Below are positions 38,204-57,758 of a stretch of DNA of 64,000 nucleotides, piece by piece. Position numbers and translations under genes: made by a program. Origin of the DNA: Ghiorsea bivora. Lineage in GTDB: Bacteria > Pseudomonadota > Zetaproteobacteria > Mariprofundales > Mariprofundaceae. Positions within the stretch are counted from its first letter, which is position 1, and each line of letters opens with the position of its first letter. The stretch is taken from positions 100,650-164,649 of the forward strand of contig NZ_JQLW01000005.1 of NCBI RefSeq assembly GCF_000744415.1, written 5' to 3'. Under the pieces are notes generated by a model. The model was not told where the DNA came from, searched no databases, and worked only from the letters and a program-made list of their open reading frames with translations.

Positions 38204-39100
38204 TTATTCCCCTCCAGAAGCAAGTAAATCAAACATGCTTATATAAGCCTCAAAACCTTCTCCTTTGACTGCATCAGGCATCAAACGACATGAAGTATGG
38301 GTTAGTTCGCACAATTTTCTGGCAATTGGGCCATCATGATAAGGTTCAAGCCATACACCCTGCACATCATTTTGTTGAACATTTGACACCAGTGCATCCA
38401 AGTGGAATGTGGAAGGTTCGATACCTGGTTTAGGCTCAACATAATCTATCACTTGTAGCCCAAAGCGTCGCGTGAGATATAAGTAAGAATTGTGATACGC
38501 AACCAATGGACTGAGCTCCTGAAAAGATATTTTCCATTGAGGCATACGTTGTTTGATTTGTTCTGTAAATTTTGACGCACGTTTGCGATAAACCTCAGCG
38601 TGTGTTGGGTCAAGTTTTGATAACCGTTCCGCAATAATCTCAGCAAGTCTCACCCCATTAAGTGGATCCATCCACCAATGTGGGTTTCCTTCTGGGTGAA
38701 TATCACCCAACTCCCTCGTAATTTTACCATGGGGTTTACCAAGCACCTTTGTGAGTATACTCCTACCATCCAAATATCCTTGGCTACCTTGTCGAATATT
38801 ATCGTTGCGCGATGCATCAACCAAAGGTGGTAACCAACCTATTTCTAGACCAAGACCAGCTGCAATCAACAAGTCAGCACGCGCAAGATGGCGGGCTAAA
38901 GTTGGCTTAGGGGGAACAAAATGTGGGTCTTGTCCAACATGCGCCAACACCTTCACCTCAGCAAAATCACCCGCTACCCCCTGAGCTATTTGACCCAAGG
39001 CAGGTAAGCTAGCGACAATGCGTAAATCACCTGCCATCGCAGTTGTTTGTGCAAGTATAAGTGTAATAGTTAATATCAATAATTTTTGTAAATACTTCAT
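38204..39100 (-). CDS. Metal ABC transporter periplasmic binding protein (ZnuA-like)
   Basis: A 298-residue secreted protein with an N-terminal signal peptide (LLILTITLILAQTTAMA, cleavage likely before GDLR). The family layout of two lobes joined by a helix is visible. Candidate metal ligands are His in GQDPHFVPPKP, GNPHWWMDP and VAYHNSY, plus a C-terminal Asp/Glu region. It lacks the long His-rich loop of many ZnuA proteins, so Zn or Mn specificity is open. It overlaps or abuts the permease and follows the porin by ten bases, so all are in one operon. Confidence 0.88.
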   Translation of the reverse strand: MKYLQKLLILTITLILAQTTAMAGDLRIVASLPALGQIAQGVAGDFAEVKVLAHVGQDPHFVPPKPTLARHLARADLLIAAGLGLEIGWLPPLVDASRNDNIRQGSQGYLDGRSILTKVLGKPHGKITRELGDIHPEGNPHWWMDPLNGVRLAEIIAERLSKLDPTHAEVYRKRASKFTEQIKQRMPQWKISFQELSPLVAYHNSYLYLTRRFGLQVIDYVEPKPGIEPSTFHLDALVSNVQQNDVQGVWLEPYHDGPIARKLCELTHTSCRLMPDAVKGEGFEAYISMFDLLASGGE

Positions 39101-39109
39101 AAGTTCTCC

Positions 39110-40288
39110 TTAATAACTATGAGGGCGATGTGGTCCAATCGCCACTACCCATCTAAAAAACACTTCGTTGGCACTTTCTCCTAGCCCAATGCTTAGATTG
39201 CTTGCTGTCTGCGTAAGTGCATTGCTTGTATGTTTATATTGCAGGGTAATACTTTGAAACTCACTTAGCTTCCAGCCAACTCCTGCGCTGTAAGCATGTT
39301 CGTTATTAACAATTCCAGTCATGCCACTAAAATCATAACGCGCAAAAGCAAGCCAATTACGATTAAAGTCATATTCACCAAGTAGGTATGCCCCATCTGT
39401 AAAGTTCTGGCTGACACCTTTATCGATTTTATTACGATTCCATTCACCTTGTAGTGACCAGCCACTATGGTCAAATTGACTATTTTTAATGGCAAAGTGC
39501 CCACCCAGAATATCACTTCGGCTGCTGCCCGATATACCATTGCGAGCACGAATAAAGGTGCTTCCCAGCTCCAAGGTAGTGGCATCATCCATATCCCACA
39601 TACCAGTCCAACCAAGCATAGCACCAAAACGATTGCTACCCGTTGGGTCAAACGCCACATCATTCGTATTTTGAAAGAAACCAAATAATAACGAATGTGC
39701 TGAATCCCCAATGTAAAGCGGACGATCAATAAATGCCCCTTCACCAATCAGCTTTTCACCACCAAATAGATTAACCAAACCATTGGGAGTGTCCGCATAA
39801 ACTAGGGCATGTGGGTGTACACCATTGGCACGACCAAGCGGTATAAACTTGCGCCCAACCCGTAAGCGGAATCCATCAGGTAACTTGGATGTTAAATAAC
39901 CTTCTTCTATACCCATACTACCATTGGCGGCTGTAACGGTGACATCCAGACGCGTATGTGCATCAACGGCTGCACCAAAAACAAATTCGCCTTCTGACAA
40001 TGGTAAAAAGCTGTCTGAATGTGCTCCATTCTCACCACTCATAGATGACCCTGCAAAAGTGCCAATAACAGAGATAGATGGATTACCTGTATTTTCTGAT
40101 GTTGTAGGCATGAATTGTTGCATGGATGTTCCATCAGTATTTGTTTGTTTACTTTCTGCTACCTCAATACGTTGCATAAGCAGTTTAACTTGTGTTTTCA
40201 AAACATTGATTTCATCGCTTTCTGCCGCATGAGCAGGCAATGCATTGATTAGGCATGGCAATAGCCACAGCAGTTTTCGTGTGTTCAT
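39110..40288 (-). CDS. Outer-membrane beta-barrel porin linked to metal uptake
   Basis: A 392-residue exported protein with a signal peptide ending ALPAHA, then a short coiled-coil segment (EINVLKTQVKLLMQRIEVAESKQ) that probably projects into the periplasm. A barrel of alternating strands and a terminal aromatic residue follow (final WVVAIGPHRPHSY). Proteins with this ending commonly sit beside zinc ABC genes, so it is likely the outer-membrane entry route. The ATG at 40288 has AAGGAG seven bases upstream. The substrate is inferred from operon context only. Confidence 0.75.
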   Translation of the reverse strand: MNTRKLLWLLPCLINALPAHAAESDEINVLKTQVKLLMQRIEVAESKQTNTDGTSMQQFMPTTSENTGNPSISVIGTFAGSSMSGENGAHSDSFLPLSEGEFVFGAAVDAHTRLDVTVTAANGSMGIEEGYLTSKLPDGFRLRVGRKFIPLGRANGVHPHALVYADTPNGLVNLFGGEKLIGEGAFIDRPLYIGDSAHSLLFGFFQNTNDVAFDPTGSNRFGAMLGWTGMWDMDDATTLELGSTFIRARNGISGSSRSDILGGHFAIKNSQFDHSGWSLQGEWNRNKIDKGVSQNFTDGAYLLGEYDFNRNWLAFARYDFSGMTGIVNNEHAYSAGVGWKLSEFQSITLQYKHTSNALTQTASNLSIGLGESANEVFFRWVVAIGPHRPHSY

Positions 40289-40311
40289 CTTCAAACTCCT
40301 TCAAGAACCCT

Positions 40312-49710: not shown

Positions 49711-50655
49711 CTAAGGGCTAACCATAGCCCCTAAATTCTGCTGCAACACATACGTATAAGTCTCTGTCGTTTTCACATCCGCATGACCAAGAAGCTTTTG
49801 CACCACCCGAATGTTCGTACCAGCTTCCAACAGGTGCGTGGCAAAGGAATGGCGCAGCGTATGCGATGTTACCCTTTTGTTGATGCCTGCTTTTTCTTTT
49901 GCGCTTTTTATTGCTTTTTGTAAGTTGGATTGATTCACATGGTGACGACGAACCTCTCCATTCTCAGAGTCTTTTGATAGCGTTTTGGGTGGGGAAATAA
50001 ATTGCCATGCCCACGTTCTTGGCGCGTTCGGATATTTTCTTGCCAAAAAATCAGGCAGCCAAACATTGGCAATCCCATGCGATCAAATAAAGTTCGAATA
50101 ACATGCAGCTGCGCTTTTAAGTCGTCATACAAAGCCTTCATTAACAAGCTTGTACGGTCTTTATTTCCTTTGCCTGCGTGGACAGGTAAACAACCGTAGT
50201 CACAACCAATATCCTGAACCCGCAAACGAAGCAGCTCATTCAGACTCAACCCCACACGATACATCAGACGTGCCATCAACAGCATTCCCCCCTTGCATGG
50301 CATCGAAAAGATAACTTATTTCTTTTTAACATAACGAGCAAGCGCGGTGACCTTTTCGAGCGAACCGCAGTAATATCATCAGCAAAGGGTAAATGAAGAA
50401 CATTTTCATACAAAAAAAGCAGTGCATTAAACGCCTAATTTTGCGTTGATACAGCAACATGTTTCTCTACCACCAAATGACTCAAATAAGATTCAACCTC
50501 GGGCTTCCCCATATCTTTTGGATGTCGTTTTTGATGAAAAATATAAAGTCTTTAATCCAATAAGTAATATGCCTCTTCTGTGCGCTTCCCATAATGATAA
50601 TAGGCATGACCTCACTCACCTGATCCATCAAACGCACAGCTTGAGAACGAAAAGA
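49711..50655 (-). pseudogene. intI: Integron integrase, decayed
   Basis: Pieces of one tyrosine recombinase are spread over three frames. In order they read [45 protein letters not shown], then VSTQN followed by a TAG stop (50435-50437) where family members have Gln. FNALLFLYENVL, LMARLMYRVGLSLNELL and GKGNKDRTS follow. After another shift come [16 protein letters not shown] and [14 protein letters not shown], the extra segment found only in integron integrases, then [13 protein letters not shown] and [16 protein letters not shown] with the catalytic His, Arg, His and Tyr. At least four frame breaks plus the stop mean it cannot be active. It reads away from the cassette genes at 50.8-52 kb, as intI normally does. 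Confidence 0.85.
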
Positions 50656-54697: not shown

Positions 54698-56023
54698 ATG
54701 AATGATACTATTTCTGCGATTGCTACCCCACATGGTCGGGGTGGCATTGGTATCATCCGTTTATCGGGGCCACAGGCTGCTAGCATCGCTTTAAAGCTAT
54801 GCCAACGTGATAAACCCTTCACACCTCGCTTTGCCCACTTTCACCACTGGTACGATGATCAAGGTGAAACCATTGATCATGGCTTAACCATTTATTTTGC
54901 AGGCTCGAACGCTTATACAGGTGAAGATACTGTAGAACTACAAGCTCATGGTAGCCCTATGCTGCTGAAAGCCTTATTCGAACGCACCTTAATGCTTGGC
55001 TGTCGTGCTGCTGAGCCTGGTGAATTTACCCGCCGCGCAGTTGAACATGGCAAGATTGATTTATCCCAAGCTGAAGCTGTGGTGGCATGTATTGATGCAG
55101 CCACCCTAAGAGCTGCCAAACAAGCCCAAAAACAATTGGATGGCACATTTGGTCGCCGTATATCCCAGTATATGGATGATTTAACTTCTGTGGTGGCACA
55201 TGTAGAAGCATGTTTAGATTTCCCAGAAGATGAAGTACCAGAACTTTTTTATGGGCAACTTCGCCAACGTGTTGAATCCGAACTCATAACGCCTATTCAG
55301 CAACAGTTAAACAGTAAACTTGGCGAACGTTTATTTGAAGGGGCAACCGTTGCCATTATTGGTGAACCCAATGTTGGTAAATCCAGTTTATTAAATGCAT
55401 TGTCGGGGCGTGACCGAGCCATTGTCACAGATATTGCAGGTACTACCCGTGATACCCTAGAAGTTGATTTTGAAGTGCATGGTATCCCTATCCGCCTGAC
55501 CGATACCGCAGGTTTGCGGCAAACTGATGATATTGTTGAACAAGAAGGGGTAAGACGCGCCAAACAAACTGCCGAAACAGCAGACTTGGTTATTTTTATT
55601 GCTGACGCTTCTCGACCTGAAACTTGGACACCCGAAACACATTTTGAAAACCTTCATATTCACCTCAAAGTCATGAATAAGGTCGATAAAACCAAAACCT
55701 TAGATGCCAAAGACTTCTTACCCATCTCCATCAAACAAAACCAAGGTTTAGAAACACTGATTGAAGTCATGGCAACCCAATTGGGAGACACTGATTTGAC
55801 AGATGAGTCCGCCTTAGTGACCTCCTCCAGACATCGCGCAGCGCTTGAAGTATCACTCGCCCATATTGTTGCGGGTTTAGACATGTTAGGGCGAGAAGAA
55901 ATGATTGACTTAACAGCCATGGAATGGCGCAGGGCATGGTCTACGCTTGGTGAAATTCTTGGTATTGGTGATGTAGAGTTTATTCTCGACAAAGTTTTTT
56001 CTGAATTTTGTATCGGCAAATAA
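54698..56023 (+). CDS. mnmE: tRNA modification GTPase MnmE
   Basis: Works with MnmG to make (c)mnm5U34 on tRNA. The 441-residue protein has the formyl-tetrahydrofolate-binding N-terminal domain (TISAIATPHGRGGIGIIRLSG), a helical domain, the inserted G domain with GEPNVGKSSLLNAL, DIAGTTRD, DTAGLRQT and NKVD, and the essential C-terminal FCIGK. Last gene of the rpmH operon; a terminator follows. Confidence 0.97.
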   Translation: MNDTISAIATPHGRGGIGIIRLSGPQAASIALKLCQRDKPFTPRFAHFHHWYDDQGETIDHGLTIYFAGSNAYTGEDTVELQAHGSPMLLKALFERTLMLGCRAAEPGEFTRRAVEHGKIDLSQAEAVVACIDAATLRAAKQAQKQLDGTFGRRISQYMDDLTSVVAHVEACLDFPEDEVPELFYGQLRQRVESELITPIQQQLNSKLGERLFEGATVAIIGEPNVGKSSLLNALSGRDRAIVTDIAGTTRDTLEVDFEVHGIPIRLTDTAGLRQTDDIVEQEGVRRAKQTAETADLVIFIADASRPETWTPETHFENLHIHLKVMNKVDKTKTLDAKDFLPISIKQNQGLETLIEVMATQLGDTDLTDESALVTSSRHRAALEVSLAHIVAGLDMLGREEMIDLTAMEWRRAWSTLGEILGIGDVEFILDKVFSEFCIGK

Positions 56024-56033
56024 ACACATAAAA

Positions 56034-56061
56034 AAAGACCTAAGCTTTGGCTTAGATCTTT
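56034..56061. terminator. Bidirectional terminator after mnmE
   Basis: A near-perfect stem (AAAGACCTAAGC / GCTTAGATCTTT, one mismatch) with a four-base loop is flanked by AAAAAA and TTTAAA. It serves mnmE and the convergent exported-protein gene. Confidence 0.8.
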
Positions 56062-56091: not shown

Positions 56092-56598
56092 TTAGTCTTC
56101 AACACTCACATTGGCATAAAAAGCAATACCAGTATTTTCATCTTCATCCAACATAAACCATCCATCAAAACCTTGTGAAGTATCTGGAATATTCGTATGT
56201 GGAATAAACAATGTTTTGCGCAAGTTTTCACCACGCCCTACTTTAATAATTTTACAAAGACCACCCAATAAAAACGAGGTATCTTCTTTGGTACTTTCAT
56301 CTTTATAACTCAGCTGACAATCCACACCAAAATCACCAAGGCTGCCTGACTCATCACGCAATACGCTGGTCTGCAGAGTAATCACATCACCATCAATAGC
56401 ACCTGCAGTGTGTGCTAAGGCAAGAATTTGTGAACCCTCCATCGCCGAAATAAAATCACTAAACGTTCCTTCTACAATCGGTGAAAATTCAAAACCTTTA
56501 TCCACCTTCTGAAATGCCGCAAAATTCACGCTTCTAACCTCACCGGCTAAGCTTAAAGTTGGAATAAACAGAATGAAAACCAATAGATATTTAAACAT
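56092..56598 (-). CDS. Exported protein of unknown function, paralogue B
   Basis: A 168-residue protein with a signal peptide (FKYLLVFILFIPTLSLAG). The mature part has two cysteines (VDCQLSY and GGLCKII), probably disulphide-bonded, and a DEDENTGIAFYANVSVED C-terminus. It closely resembles the neighbouring upstream gene over the whole length, with long identical stretches such as GDVITLQTSVLRDESG and the shared ending motif DTSQGFDGWFMLDEDE. The fold may be an OB-like barrel, but I recognise no family. GGGAGG precedes the ATG at 56598. It lies 66 bp after its paralogue. Confidence 0.85.
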   Translation of the reverse strand: MFKYLLVFILFIPTLSLAGEVRSVNFAAFQKVDKGFEFSPIVEGTFSDFISAMEGSQILALAHTAGAIDGDVITLQTSVLRDESGSLGDFGVDCQLSYKDESTKEDTSFLLGGLCKIIKVGRGENLRKTLFIPHTNIPDTSQGFDGWFMLDEDENTGIAFYANVSVED

Positions 56599-56664
56599 CA
56601 AAAACCTCCCATAAACATAGCACTATGCGTTAAATGATAACCTGAATCAAATAATCAGTAATAA

Positions 56665-57171
56665 CTAATCAGATACACTTACATTTGCATAAAATGCAAT
56701 ACCTGTTTTTTCATCTTCATCCAACATAAACCATCCATCAAAACCTTGTGAAGTATCTGGGATATTTGTATGTGGAATGAATAATGTTTCACGAACATTC
56801 TTACCGCGCCCTACTTGAATAATTTTACAAAGACCACCCAGTAAGTATGACGGGTCAGTGCCTACACTTTCATCTTTAAAACTCAATTGGCAATCAATAC
56901 CAAAGTCTCCAAGGTTACCTGATTCATCACGCAATACGCTGGTCTGCAAAGTAATCACATCACCATCAATAGCACCTGCCGTGTGCGCTAAGGCAAGAAT
57001 TTGTGAGCCACGCATTGCTGTAATAAAATCACTAAATTTACCTTCTACAACCGCTTCAAACTCAAAGTCTTTATCCACCTTCTGAAATGCCGCAAAATTG
57101 ACGTTGCGGGCTTCACCTGCTGTCGCTAAATGTGGTAATAGCAACAACAAACCCAATACATATTTTAACAT
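56665..57171 (-). CDS. Exported protein of unknown function, paralogue A
   Basis: A 168-residue secreted protein with a signal peptide (LKYVLGLLLLLPHLATAG), of the same length as its paralogue. Both keep VNFAAFQKVDK, SQILALAHTAGAIDGD and the two cysteines. Differences cluster in the middle loop (DESVGTDPSY here against DESTKEDTSF), as expected after a tandem duplication with divergence. GGGGAG lies within the purN stop region, so it is the last gene of the corC-fetB-purN transcript or has its own promoter. Function unknown. Confidence 0.85.
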   Translation of the reverse strand: MLKYVLGLLLLLPHLATAGEARNVNFAAFQKVDKDFEFEAVVEGKFSDFITAMRGSQILALAHTAGAIDGDVITLQTSVLRDESGNLGDFGIDCQLSFKDESVGTDPSYLLGGLCKIIQVGRGKNVRETLFIPHTNIPDTSQGFDGWFMLDEDEKTGIAFYANVSVSD

Positions 57172-57182
57172 TTTCTCTCCCC

Positions 57183-57758
57183 TCAACTATCTTTTATAAG
57201 TTTATCAATCACATCAGGATAAATCTCATATTCTTTTTCTTGAATCCGAGCATGCAATGAAGCATGGTCGTCTTCAATTAACACAGGCACACAAGATTGA
57301 GCAAGTATAGGCCCACTGTCTAGTTCTTTTGTGACAATATGCACCGTACAGCCTGAAACCTTTACCCCATACCGCAGTGCATCACCTACAGCATCCGCCC
57401 CAATGAAAGACGGAAGCAGCGAAGGATGAATATTAATAATGTGCTGTGGAAAGGTCTGAATAAAACTTTCAGATAAAATGCGCATATAACCTGCCAGTAC
57501 AATCAACTTACAATCAGCATCTTGAATCACTTGGCTACACGCTGCATCAAATGCTTCTCGTCCTACATAATCTTTTGGATTAATAAAATAAACATGGGGC
57601 ACCCCAGCCTTTTTAGCAATTTGCAAAGCACCCGCATCCGCTTTATTACAAATCACCACTTCAACTTTTGCGCAACAGTCGCCACGCGCAACAGCTTCTA
57701 AGATTGCTTTTAAATTACTTCCTTTGCCTGATGCCAATACTGCAATTTTATTGTTCAT
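57183..57758 (-). CDS. purN: Phosphoribosylglycinamide formyltransferase
   Basis: Uses 10-formyltetrahydrofolate for the third step of purine synthesis. The 191-residue protein has VLASGKGSNLKAI (GAR phosphate loop), the catalytic IINIHPSLLPSF with the Asn-His pair, and GCTVHIVTKELDSGPI with the catalytic Asp. The ATG overlaps the end of the upstream permease gene by 11 bp. purM, its usual neighbour, is not present. Confidence 0.96.
   Translation of the reverse strand: MNNKIAVLASGKGSNLKAILEAVARGDCCAKVEVVICNKADAGALQIAKKAGVPHVYFINPKDYVGREAFDAACSQVIQDADCKLIVLAGYMRILSESFIQTFPQHIINIHPSLLPSFIGADAVGDALRYGVKVSGCTVHIVTKELDSGPILAQSCVPVLIEDDHASLHARIQEKEYEIYPDVIDKLIKDS

Follow-up and report, generated by a model that had tools for sequence, protein, structure and literature searches.

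As marine iron oxidizers the Zetaproteobacteria serve as model organisms, and a large part of their cell envelope is uncharacterised. One described set of conserved genes of unknown function from this class is the Sfz stalk-formation cluster, whose genes range from 929 to 7,352 bp according to the available text of its description (PMC8250860, Table 2). The same text reports that the cluster is missing from stalk-less Zetaproteobacteria and that Ghiorsea is stalk-less. The gene family treated here, which we call B, resembles Sfz in being conserved in Zetaproteobacteria and of unknown function, but at 507 bp its genes are shorter. Since B is present in Ghiorsea, we rejected a role for it in stalk formation, given the stalk-less state reported in that text.

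Among described proteins, the small outer-membrane barrels of the OmpX/Ail/Opa type resemble B in apparent export, in a mature length of about 150 residues and in the eight long strands seen in a model of B. However, B differs from them in having an invariant cysteine pair, in lacking a terminal aromatic residue and in its weaker membrane-type faces, and a sequence match to them was not found. The barrel shared by allene oxide cyclases and dirigent proteins is all-beta like B. One of 14 B members matched the Pfam model PF18678 (AOC_like) at E 0.12, and dirigent chains took ranks 2 and 6 in a Foldseek search and reached a VIA-align Z of 3.8, all of these scores being within the range of chance. 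Genes for OprB porins and PstS-like solute-binding proteins adjoin B in some loci of other Zetaproteobacteria; these proteins are not relatives of B or of its partner family, H, and their genes do not lie beside the B genes described here.

These B genes form a pair within a 64,000-nucleotide stretch of the Ghiorsea bivora genome (the window). Judging from sequence comparisons, the two genes are probably part of a cell-envelope module that has so far gone unrecognised. Our preferred reading, which we put forward tentatively and would place just short of probable, is that B and H make up a two-protein periplasmic module, an accessory of envelope uptake in which B is the variable all-beta part and H the shared part. 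The larger find, beyond the pair itself, is an unnamed and strongly lineage-restricted pair of apparently exported families.

The gene pair and its family

The two genes lie in tandem on the minus strand. The upstream copy (P0002) occupies positions 56665-57171 and the downstream copy (P0001) positions 56092-56598, with a 66-bp spacer between them (56599-56664), and each open reading frame runs from an ATG to a stop and encodes 168 amino acids. Directly upstream, on the same strand, is a purN-like gene (57183-57758; like the mnmE-like gene below, named by eye), and as only 11 bp separate its stop from the ATG of P0002, the two genes are likely to share one transcript. The same order of purN-like gene and B is found in three further loci (L036, L105 and L108). 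The pair is followed by a terminator-like hairpin on the minus strand (56034-56061), with a 12-pair stem and a T-run; two such sites occur in the region compared with 1.4 (sd 1.2) in shuffles, a count that is not in itself significant. On the plus strand an mnmE-like gene (54698-56023) converges on the pair, and serves to mark the site in relatives.

The tandem paralogy claimed in a preliminary description of this DNA holds: the copies are identical at 128 of 153 positions (84%) over residues 16-168, and at 80% over all 168. Both have signal-peptide-like starts, MLKYVLGLLLLLPHLATA and MFKYLLVFILFIPTLSLA, each followed by GE, and this by-eye reading supports the proposed export by appearance. 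Both copies also carry Cys 94 and Cys 115, the two conserved cysteines pointed out earlier, and the described alternation of identical blocks with a differing loop is seen at residues ~100-107, which diverge between near-identical flanks. In the mature part the copies share at most 17 identical codons in a row, a length matched in 43 of 5000 shuffles. The source genome (G000; 2,154,483 bases in 13 contigs) has a third, distant B copy on contig C6, with 28% identity, and P0002 has a relative in genome G027 that is 98% identical.

We defined the B family with a profile, A1, of 14 members, and searched 78 Zetaproteobacteria genomes and a phylum sample of 398 genomes. B was found in 53 of the 78 genomes of the class and in 54 of the 398 in the phylum sample, at least 320 of which (398 less 78) lie outside the class. 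Among the genomes searched B is thus nearly confined to Zetaproteobacteria, with one genome outside (G078). On contig C67 of that genome (L074) there are two B genes and one H gene. G078 is the sole out-of-class positive for either family, and the only representative of its own class and family in the sample. Within Zetaproteobacteria B is absent from 25 of the 78 genomes, including two single-contig assemblies, and from 13 of the 39 that have at least 90% completeness and at most 5% contamination.

The 137 hits in the searched open reading frames gave an alignment of 133 rows once four had been dropped: L003, a duplicate of L075, and three others that were shorter than 120 residues or contained X. 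Residues G91, C94, G113 and C115 are invariant in all 133 rows, window copies included, as is W147 in 131 of 131. Both window copies were recovered by A1, carry these five residues and are members of B on that basis. Conservation is also high at D71 (99%), Y161 (98%) and G157 (96%), and reaches 89% at D153 and 77% at H63.

The near-confinement of B to an iron-oxidizing class might be taken to mean that B and H act in iron or redox handling at the surface, by binding Fe(II)/Fe(III) or protecting against peroxide, and not in general uptake. The acidic character of B would fit such a role, as would the rubrerythrin-like gene that follows B in three loci and the OprB-like porins of cyanobacteria, which are described as iron-uptake porins in the available text of PMC9723758. 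We nevertheless regard this idea as unlikely: a clear metal site is absent among the conserved residues (H63, D71 and D153 being the ones considered), and as B is missing from those 25 genomes of the class, the two single-contig ones among them, it is not needed for iron oxidation.

The pair had been described as being of unknown function, and profile searches with both sequences bore this out, Pfam and NCBIfam giving no match to a characterised family above cut-off for either protein. Across the 14 B members Pfam yielded weak matches alone (best E 0.013, Acyltransf_C; MCH at E 0.016), the best PHROGs match was at E 0.065, and the best match among PDB sequences was at E 1.5. In the available text of the literature on Ghiorsea, Mariprofundus proteomes, Zetaproteobacteria signature proteins and OprB, neither B nor H is named, and they may well be tabled there as hypothetical proteins.

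In one relative (G028) the second B copy of the genome lies on contig C31 (L103) among transposase-like open reading frames, as named by eye, which suggests that this copy moved with insertion sequences.

Age of the duplication

The divergence of the two copies had been ascribed to a recent duplication. The mature parts have dS 0.70 and dN 0.10, and the signal peptides dS 0.40 and dN 0.45. A quick tree was built from 133 members of the family, with SH-aLRT as its only support. In it the upstream copy groups with copies from G027 and G026 (SH-aLRT 87), and the downstream copy with copies from G026, G023 and G029 (SH-aLRT 98), the copies in L095, L096 and L097 being in its group. G026 has both copies, each clustering with its counterpart in the window, which rules out a duplication confined to the present strain. 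The pair is therefore an older tandem duplication, and the word 'recent' has to be given up.

In G023, 60-base windows along the two copies are 88-100% identical over the first 300 mature bases and 67-92% identical over the rest; the corresponding range for the window copies is 71-95%. That the early mature part is more alike than the rest suggests gene conversion between the G023 copies, and exchange between copies has probably taken place in this relative.

The pair is under selection, as had been proposed, and this selection is purifying. We rejected the differing loop as a mark of diversifying selection in view of the mature dN of 0.10 against a dS of 0.70; dN comes close to dS in the signal peptide alone.

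Fold of B and its cysteines

A model of P0002 residues 19-168, built from 18 sequences, has a mean pLDDT of 87.5. Two helices, spanning model residues 28-34 and, more briefly, 122-124, interrupt an otherwise all-beta structure with nine strand elements, eight of them long. On this model B would be an exported all-beta protein of about 150 residues after removal of the signal peptide, located in the periplasm or at the surface. Cys 94 and Cys 115 occupy matching positions of a predicted hairpin (89-100/109-121, with the register obtained by arithmetic), and for this reason a disulphide between them is likely; it would be the single disulphide of B, holding two paired strands together.

Foldseek searches with the model reached E 0.001 or better in neither the PDB nor BFVD, so we assign B to no fold. 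The preliminary description had suggested comparison with OB-fold or lipocalin-like proteins. B is modelled as all-beta, with its eight long strands, but a PDB match at that level is absent: a single lipocalin chain (6tlb) appeared among the fold matches, at E 0.72 and probability 0.08, and the searches gave no confident match of any kind, OB-folds included, an absence that does not exclude the fold. The top VIA-align rows were secretins, with Z up to 8.9 at 5 to 14% identity. We rejected a secretin relationship, as most secretins are far longer and these Z values lie near the level seen where nothing matches.

Alternatively, B might be one of the very small beta-barrels of the outer membrane, of the OmpX/Ail/Opa type, with H as a helper in the periplasm or attached to the membrane, in which case the two would form a surface system and not an accessory of periplasmic uptake. 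Eight long strands within 150 residues are what such a barrel would have, and near-whole-length VIA-align rows were obtained for Ail (Z 6.6, 130 residues aligned), OmpX (Z 6.5, 124) and OmpA (Z 5.8, 132). The best viral match of the model is a phage protein annotated 'outer membrane protein beta-barrel' (E 0.019, probability 0.94), and the last strand has the conserved G157 (96%) together with a hydrophobic position at 160. However, VIA-align Z values below 8 are common without kinship, a best Z of 7 to 8 being typical where there is no clear match, and the secretin rows score higher than the barrels. A C-terminal aromatic residue is part of the beta signal of outer-membrane barrels; the two proteins here end in VSVED and VSVSD and have no such residue. 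Several strands fit the pattern expected of a barrel, but neither face of strand 124-137 is hydrophobic throughout, and both faces of strand 56-67 are hydrophobic. Cys 94 and Cys 115 sit on hydrophobic faces, which would be odd for a surface facing lipid. Taken together, we think a barrel improbable.

The partner family H and neighbouring uptake genes

In many neighbourhoods B lies next to a small gene of about 100 codons for an apparently exported protein, H. A model of H from 3 sequences (mean pLDDT 74; 77-92 in the mature blocks) predicts a helical hairpin for the mature part, and H has no cysteine. The profile used to find H was seeded from H genes near B, taken by a text motif from loci fetched for B, and therefore leans towards linked genes. 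It identified 79 H genes in 52 of the 78 Zetaproteobacteria genomes and, in the phylum sample outside the class, one in G078, beside B.

Family searches with 14 H members gave best matches at E 0.0042 in Pfam and E 0.00071 in NCBIfam (spore_III_AF, one member), and the best match among PDB sequences was at E 0.17; in searches of PDB folds the H model did not reach E 0.001 or better. Six of the 14 members matched NF033672, 'copper uptake system-associated protein', with a best E of 0.01. That family would fit an uptake role, but the family-search matches are scattered and we treat all of them, NF033672 included, as chance. The two families usually differ in charge, B being acidic (median pI of the mature part 4.71, with 2 of 133 over 7) and H mostly basic (median 9.11 for the last 66 residues, with 45 of 58 over 7).

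H and B are closely linked. In the class 54 of the 79 H genes lie no more than 200 bp from a B gene of the same strand, and no H gene is that close to a B gene of the opposite strand; extending the distance to 700 bp leaves the same-strand count at 54 of 79 and adds one opposite-strand case, against a chance expectation below 1 by a rough estimate that assumes about 1.8 B genes per 2-Mb genome. Among the fetched loci there are 57 linked cases, and in 51 of these H lies upstream of the B closest to it. Of the 53 class genomes with B, 42 contain a same-strand H-B pair within 1500 bp. The families also come and go together. Both are found in 50 of the 78 class genomes, B alone in 3 (G002, G038 and G047), H alone in 2 (G011, and G058 by a weak match) and neither in 23, so that presence or absence agrees in 73 of 78 (Fisher p 2e-14, a value which, like all the counts, is inflated by related genomes). 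Linked genes make up 59 of the 133 B rows and are spread over many parts of the B tree, with 24 state changes, and some clades have no linked member. As two unnamed and apparently exported families that appear and disappear together, B and H are clearly a candidate for envelope biology specific to this lineage.

The linkage might also have come about through gathering at permissive sites and joint inheritance, with the two proteins not acting together. Each does occur alone: within 1500 bp on the same strand 24 of the 79 H genes have no B, and 78 of the 138 B hits have no H (fragments at contig ends included), leaving 60 with one. The sites also differ between genomes, and the correlation of H and B distances (Mantel r 0.63, 0 of 2000 shuffles) is what joint inheritance alone would yield. 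Against this account stand the closeness on one strand of 54 of the 79 H genes to B and the concordance of the two families, which holds for 73 of the 78 genomes of the class and again for the out-of-class part of the phylum sample. We consider the account very unlikely.

Under the reading that we prefer, a two-protein module, B would work with H, a small exported helical-hairpin protein usually of opposite charge; B would vary between paralogues, and a common H could serve several of them. Two genomes illustrate this last point. In G053 two H proteins are identical over their last 60 residues and their B partners are 28% identical, and in G077 two H proteins match at 56 of the last 60 residues, with B partners at 34%. 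In most other genomes with two modules both B and H have diverged, and a shared H is therefore not general.

The pair in the window has no nearby H on its strand, and the H profile found none anywhere in the window. In relatives the same site, between the mnmE-like and purN-like genes, holds B, H and B in L106, and two B genes, H and a further B on the other strand, 237 bp from H, in L109; L107 has H and B beside mnmE, the purN side being missing at a contig end. B stands alone at this site in the window and in L094-L098. The simplest account of this comparison would be that H was lost at the window's site, and both B copies may then use H made elsewhere in the genome. G000 has two H genes, at C10:83404 and C6:119236, the latter adjoining the third B. 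When their final 60 residues are compared with those of the H proteins in L106, L107 and L109, the C10 copy agrees at 47-49 positions and the C6 copy at 20-21. The C10 gene (G000:C10:83404-83673; L191 8402-8683) lies without B between purC-like and carB-like genes, as do its counterparts in L192 and L195, and in G029 (L122) the purC-carB site has both B and H.

The neighbours of B in other genomes point to uptake. The class has about 52 OprB (PF04966) genes, joined from 56 matches by counting as one gene the two pieces in G013, the two in G047 and the three in G018. For nine of these genes a B lies on the same strand at a distance of up to 1500 bp, and for a tenth, in G053, on the other strand; the four OprB genes beside B that were scanned with Pfam all scored above the PF04966 cut-off. 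On the B tree the genes that adjoin OprB occupy no fewer than three separate places, or five by a strict count. Few B genes have H and a porin both nearby, namely those in L076, L178, L180 and, with the porin on the other strand, L088. One clade of B has 11 members, and in 10 of them a PstS-like (PF12849) gene lies next to B and on its strand, the eleventh locus (L133) ending there at a contig end. The two PstS-like genes scanned matched PF12849 at E 4.8e-39 and 5.3e-31. No H was found beside the B members of this clade.

These links to OprB-type porins and PstS-like proteins provide testable ideas about solute uptake, in which the B-H pair would act as an accessory of such envelope systems. 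As OprB-like porins of cyanobacteria are described as serving in iron uptake, the solute might be iron, phosphate or something else. G000 has no PF04966 match and no H at the site, so that for the window both the uptake and the H links are drawn by analogy with relatives. A broader proposal, which we find doubtful, is that B and H form a lineage-specific envelope system in which one helical adaptor, H, serves divergent B proteins, each matched to its own uptake route (an OprB porin, a PstS-like binding protein or others). This would amount to a modular solute-capture set for cells living in iron-oxide mats, with the B copies in the window sharing adaptors from other sites.

In L162-L164 B is followed by a rubrerythrin-like gene with a signal-peptide-like start. 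Some further genes of the window were named by eye. A ZnuA-like binding-protein open reading frame adjoins a porin-like one on the minus strand (38204-40294), and on the same strand, at 49711-50303, two overlapping open reading frames in different frames resemble a frameshifted tyrosine recombinase of the integron type.
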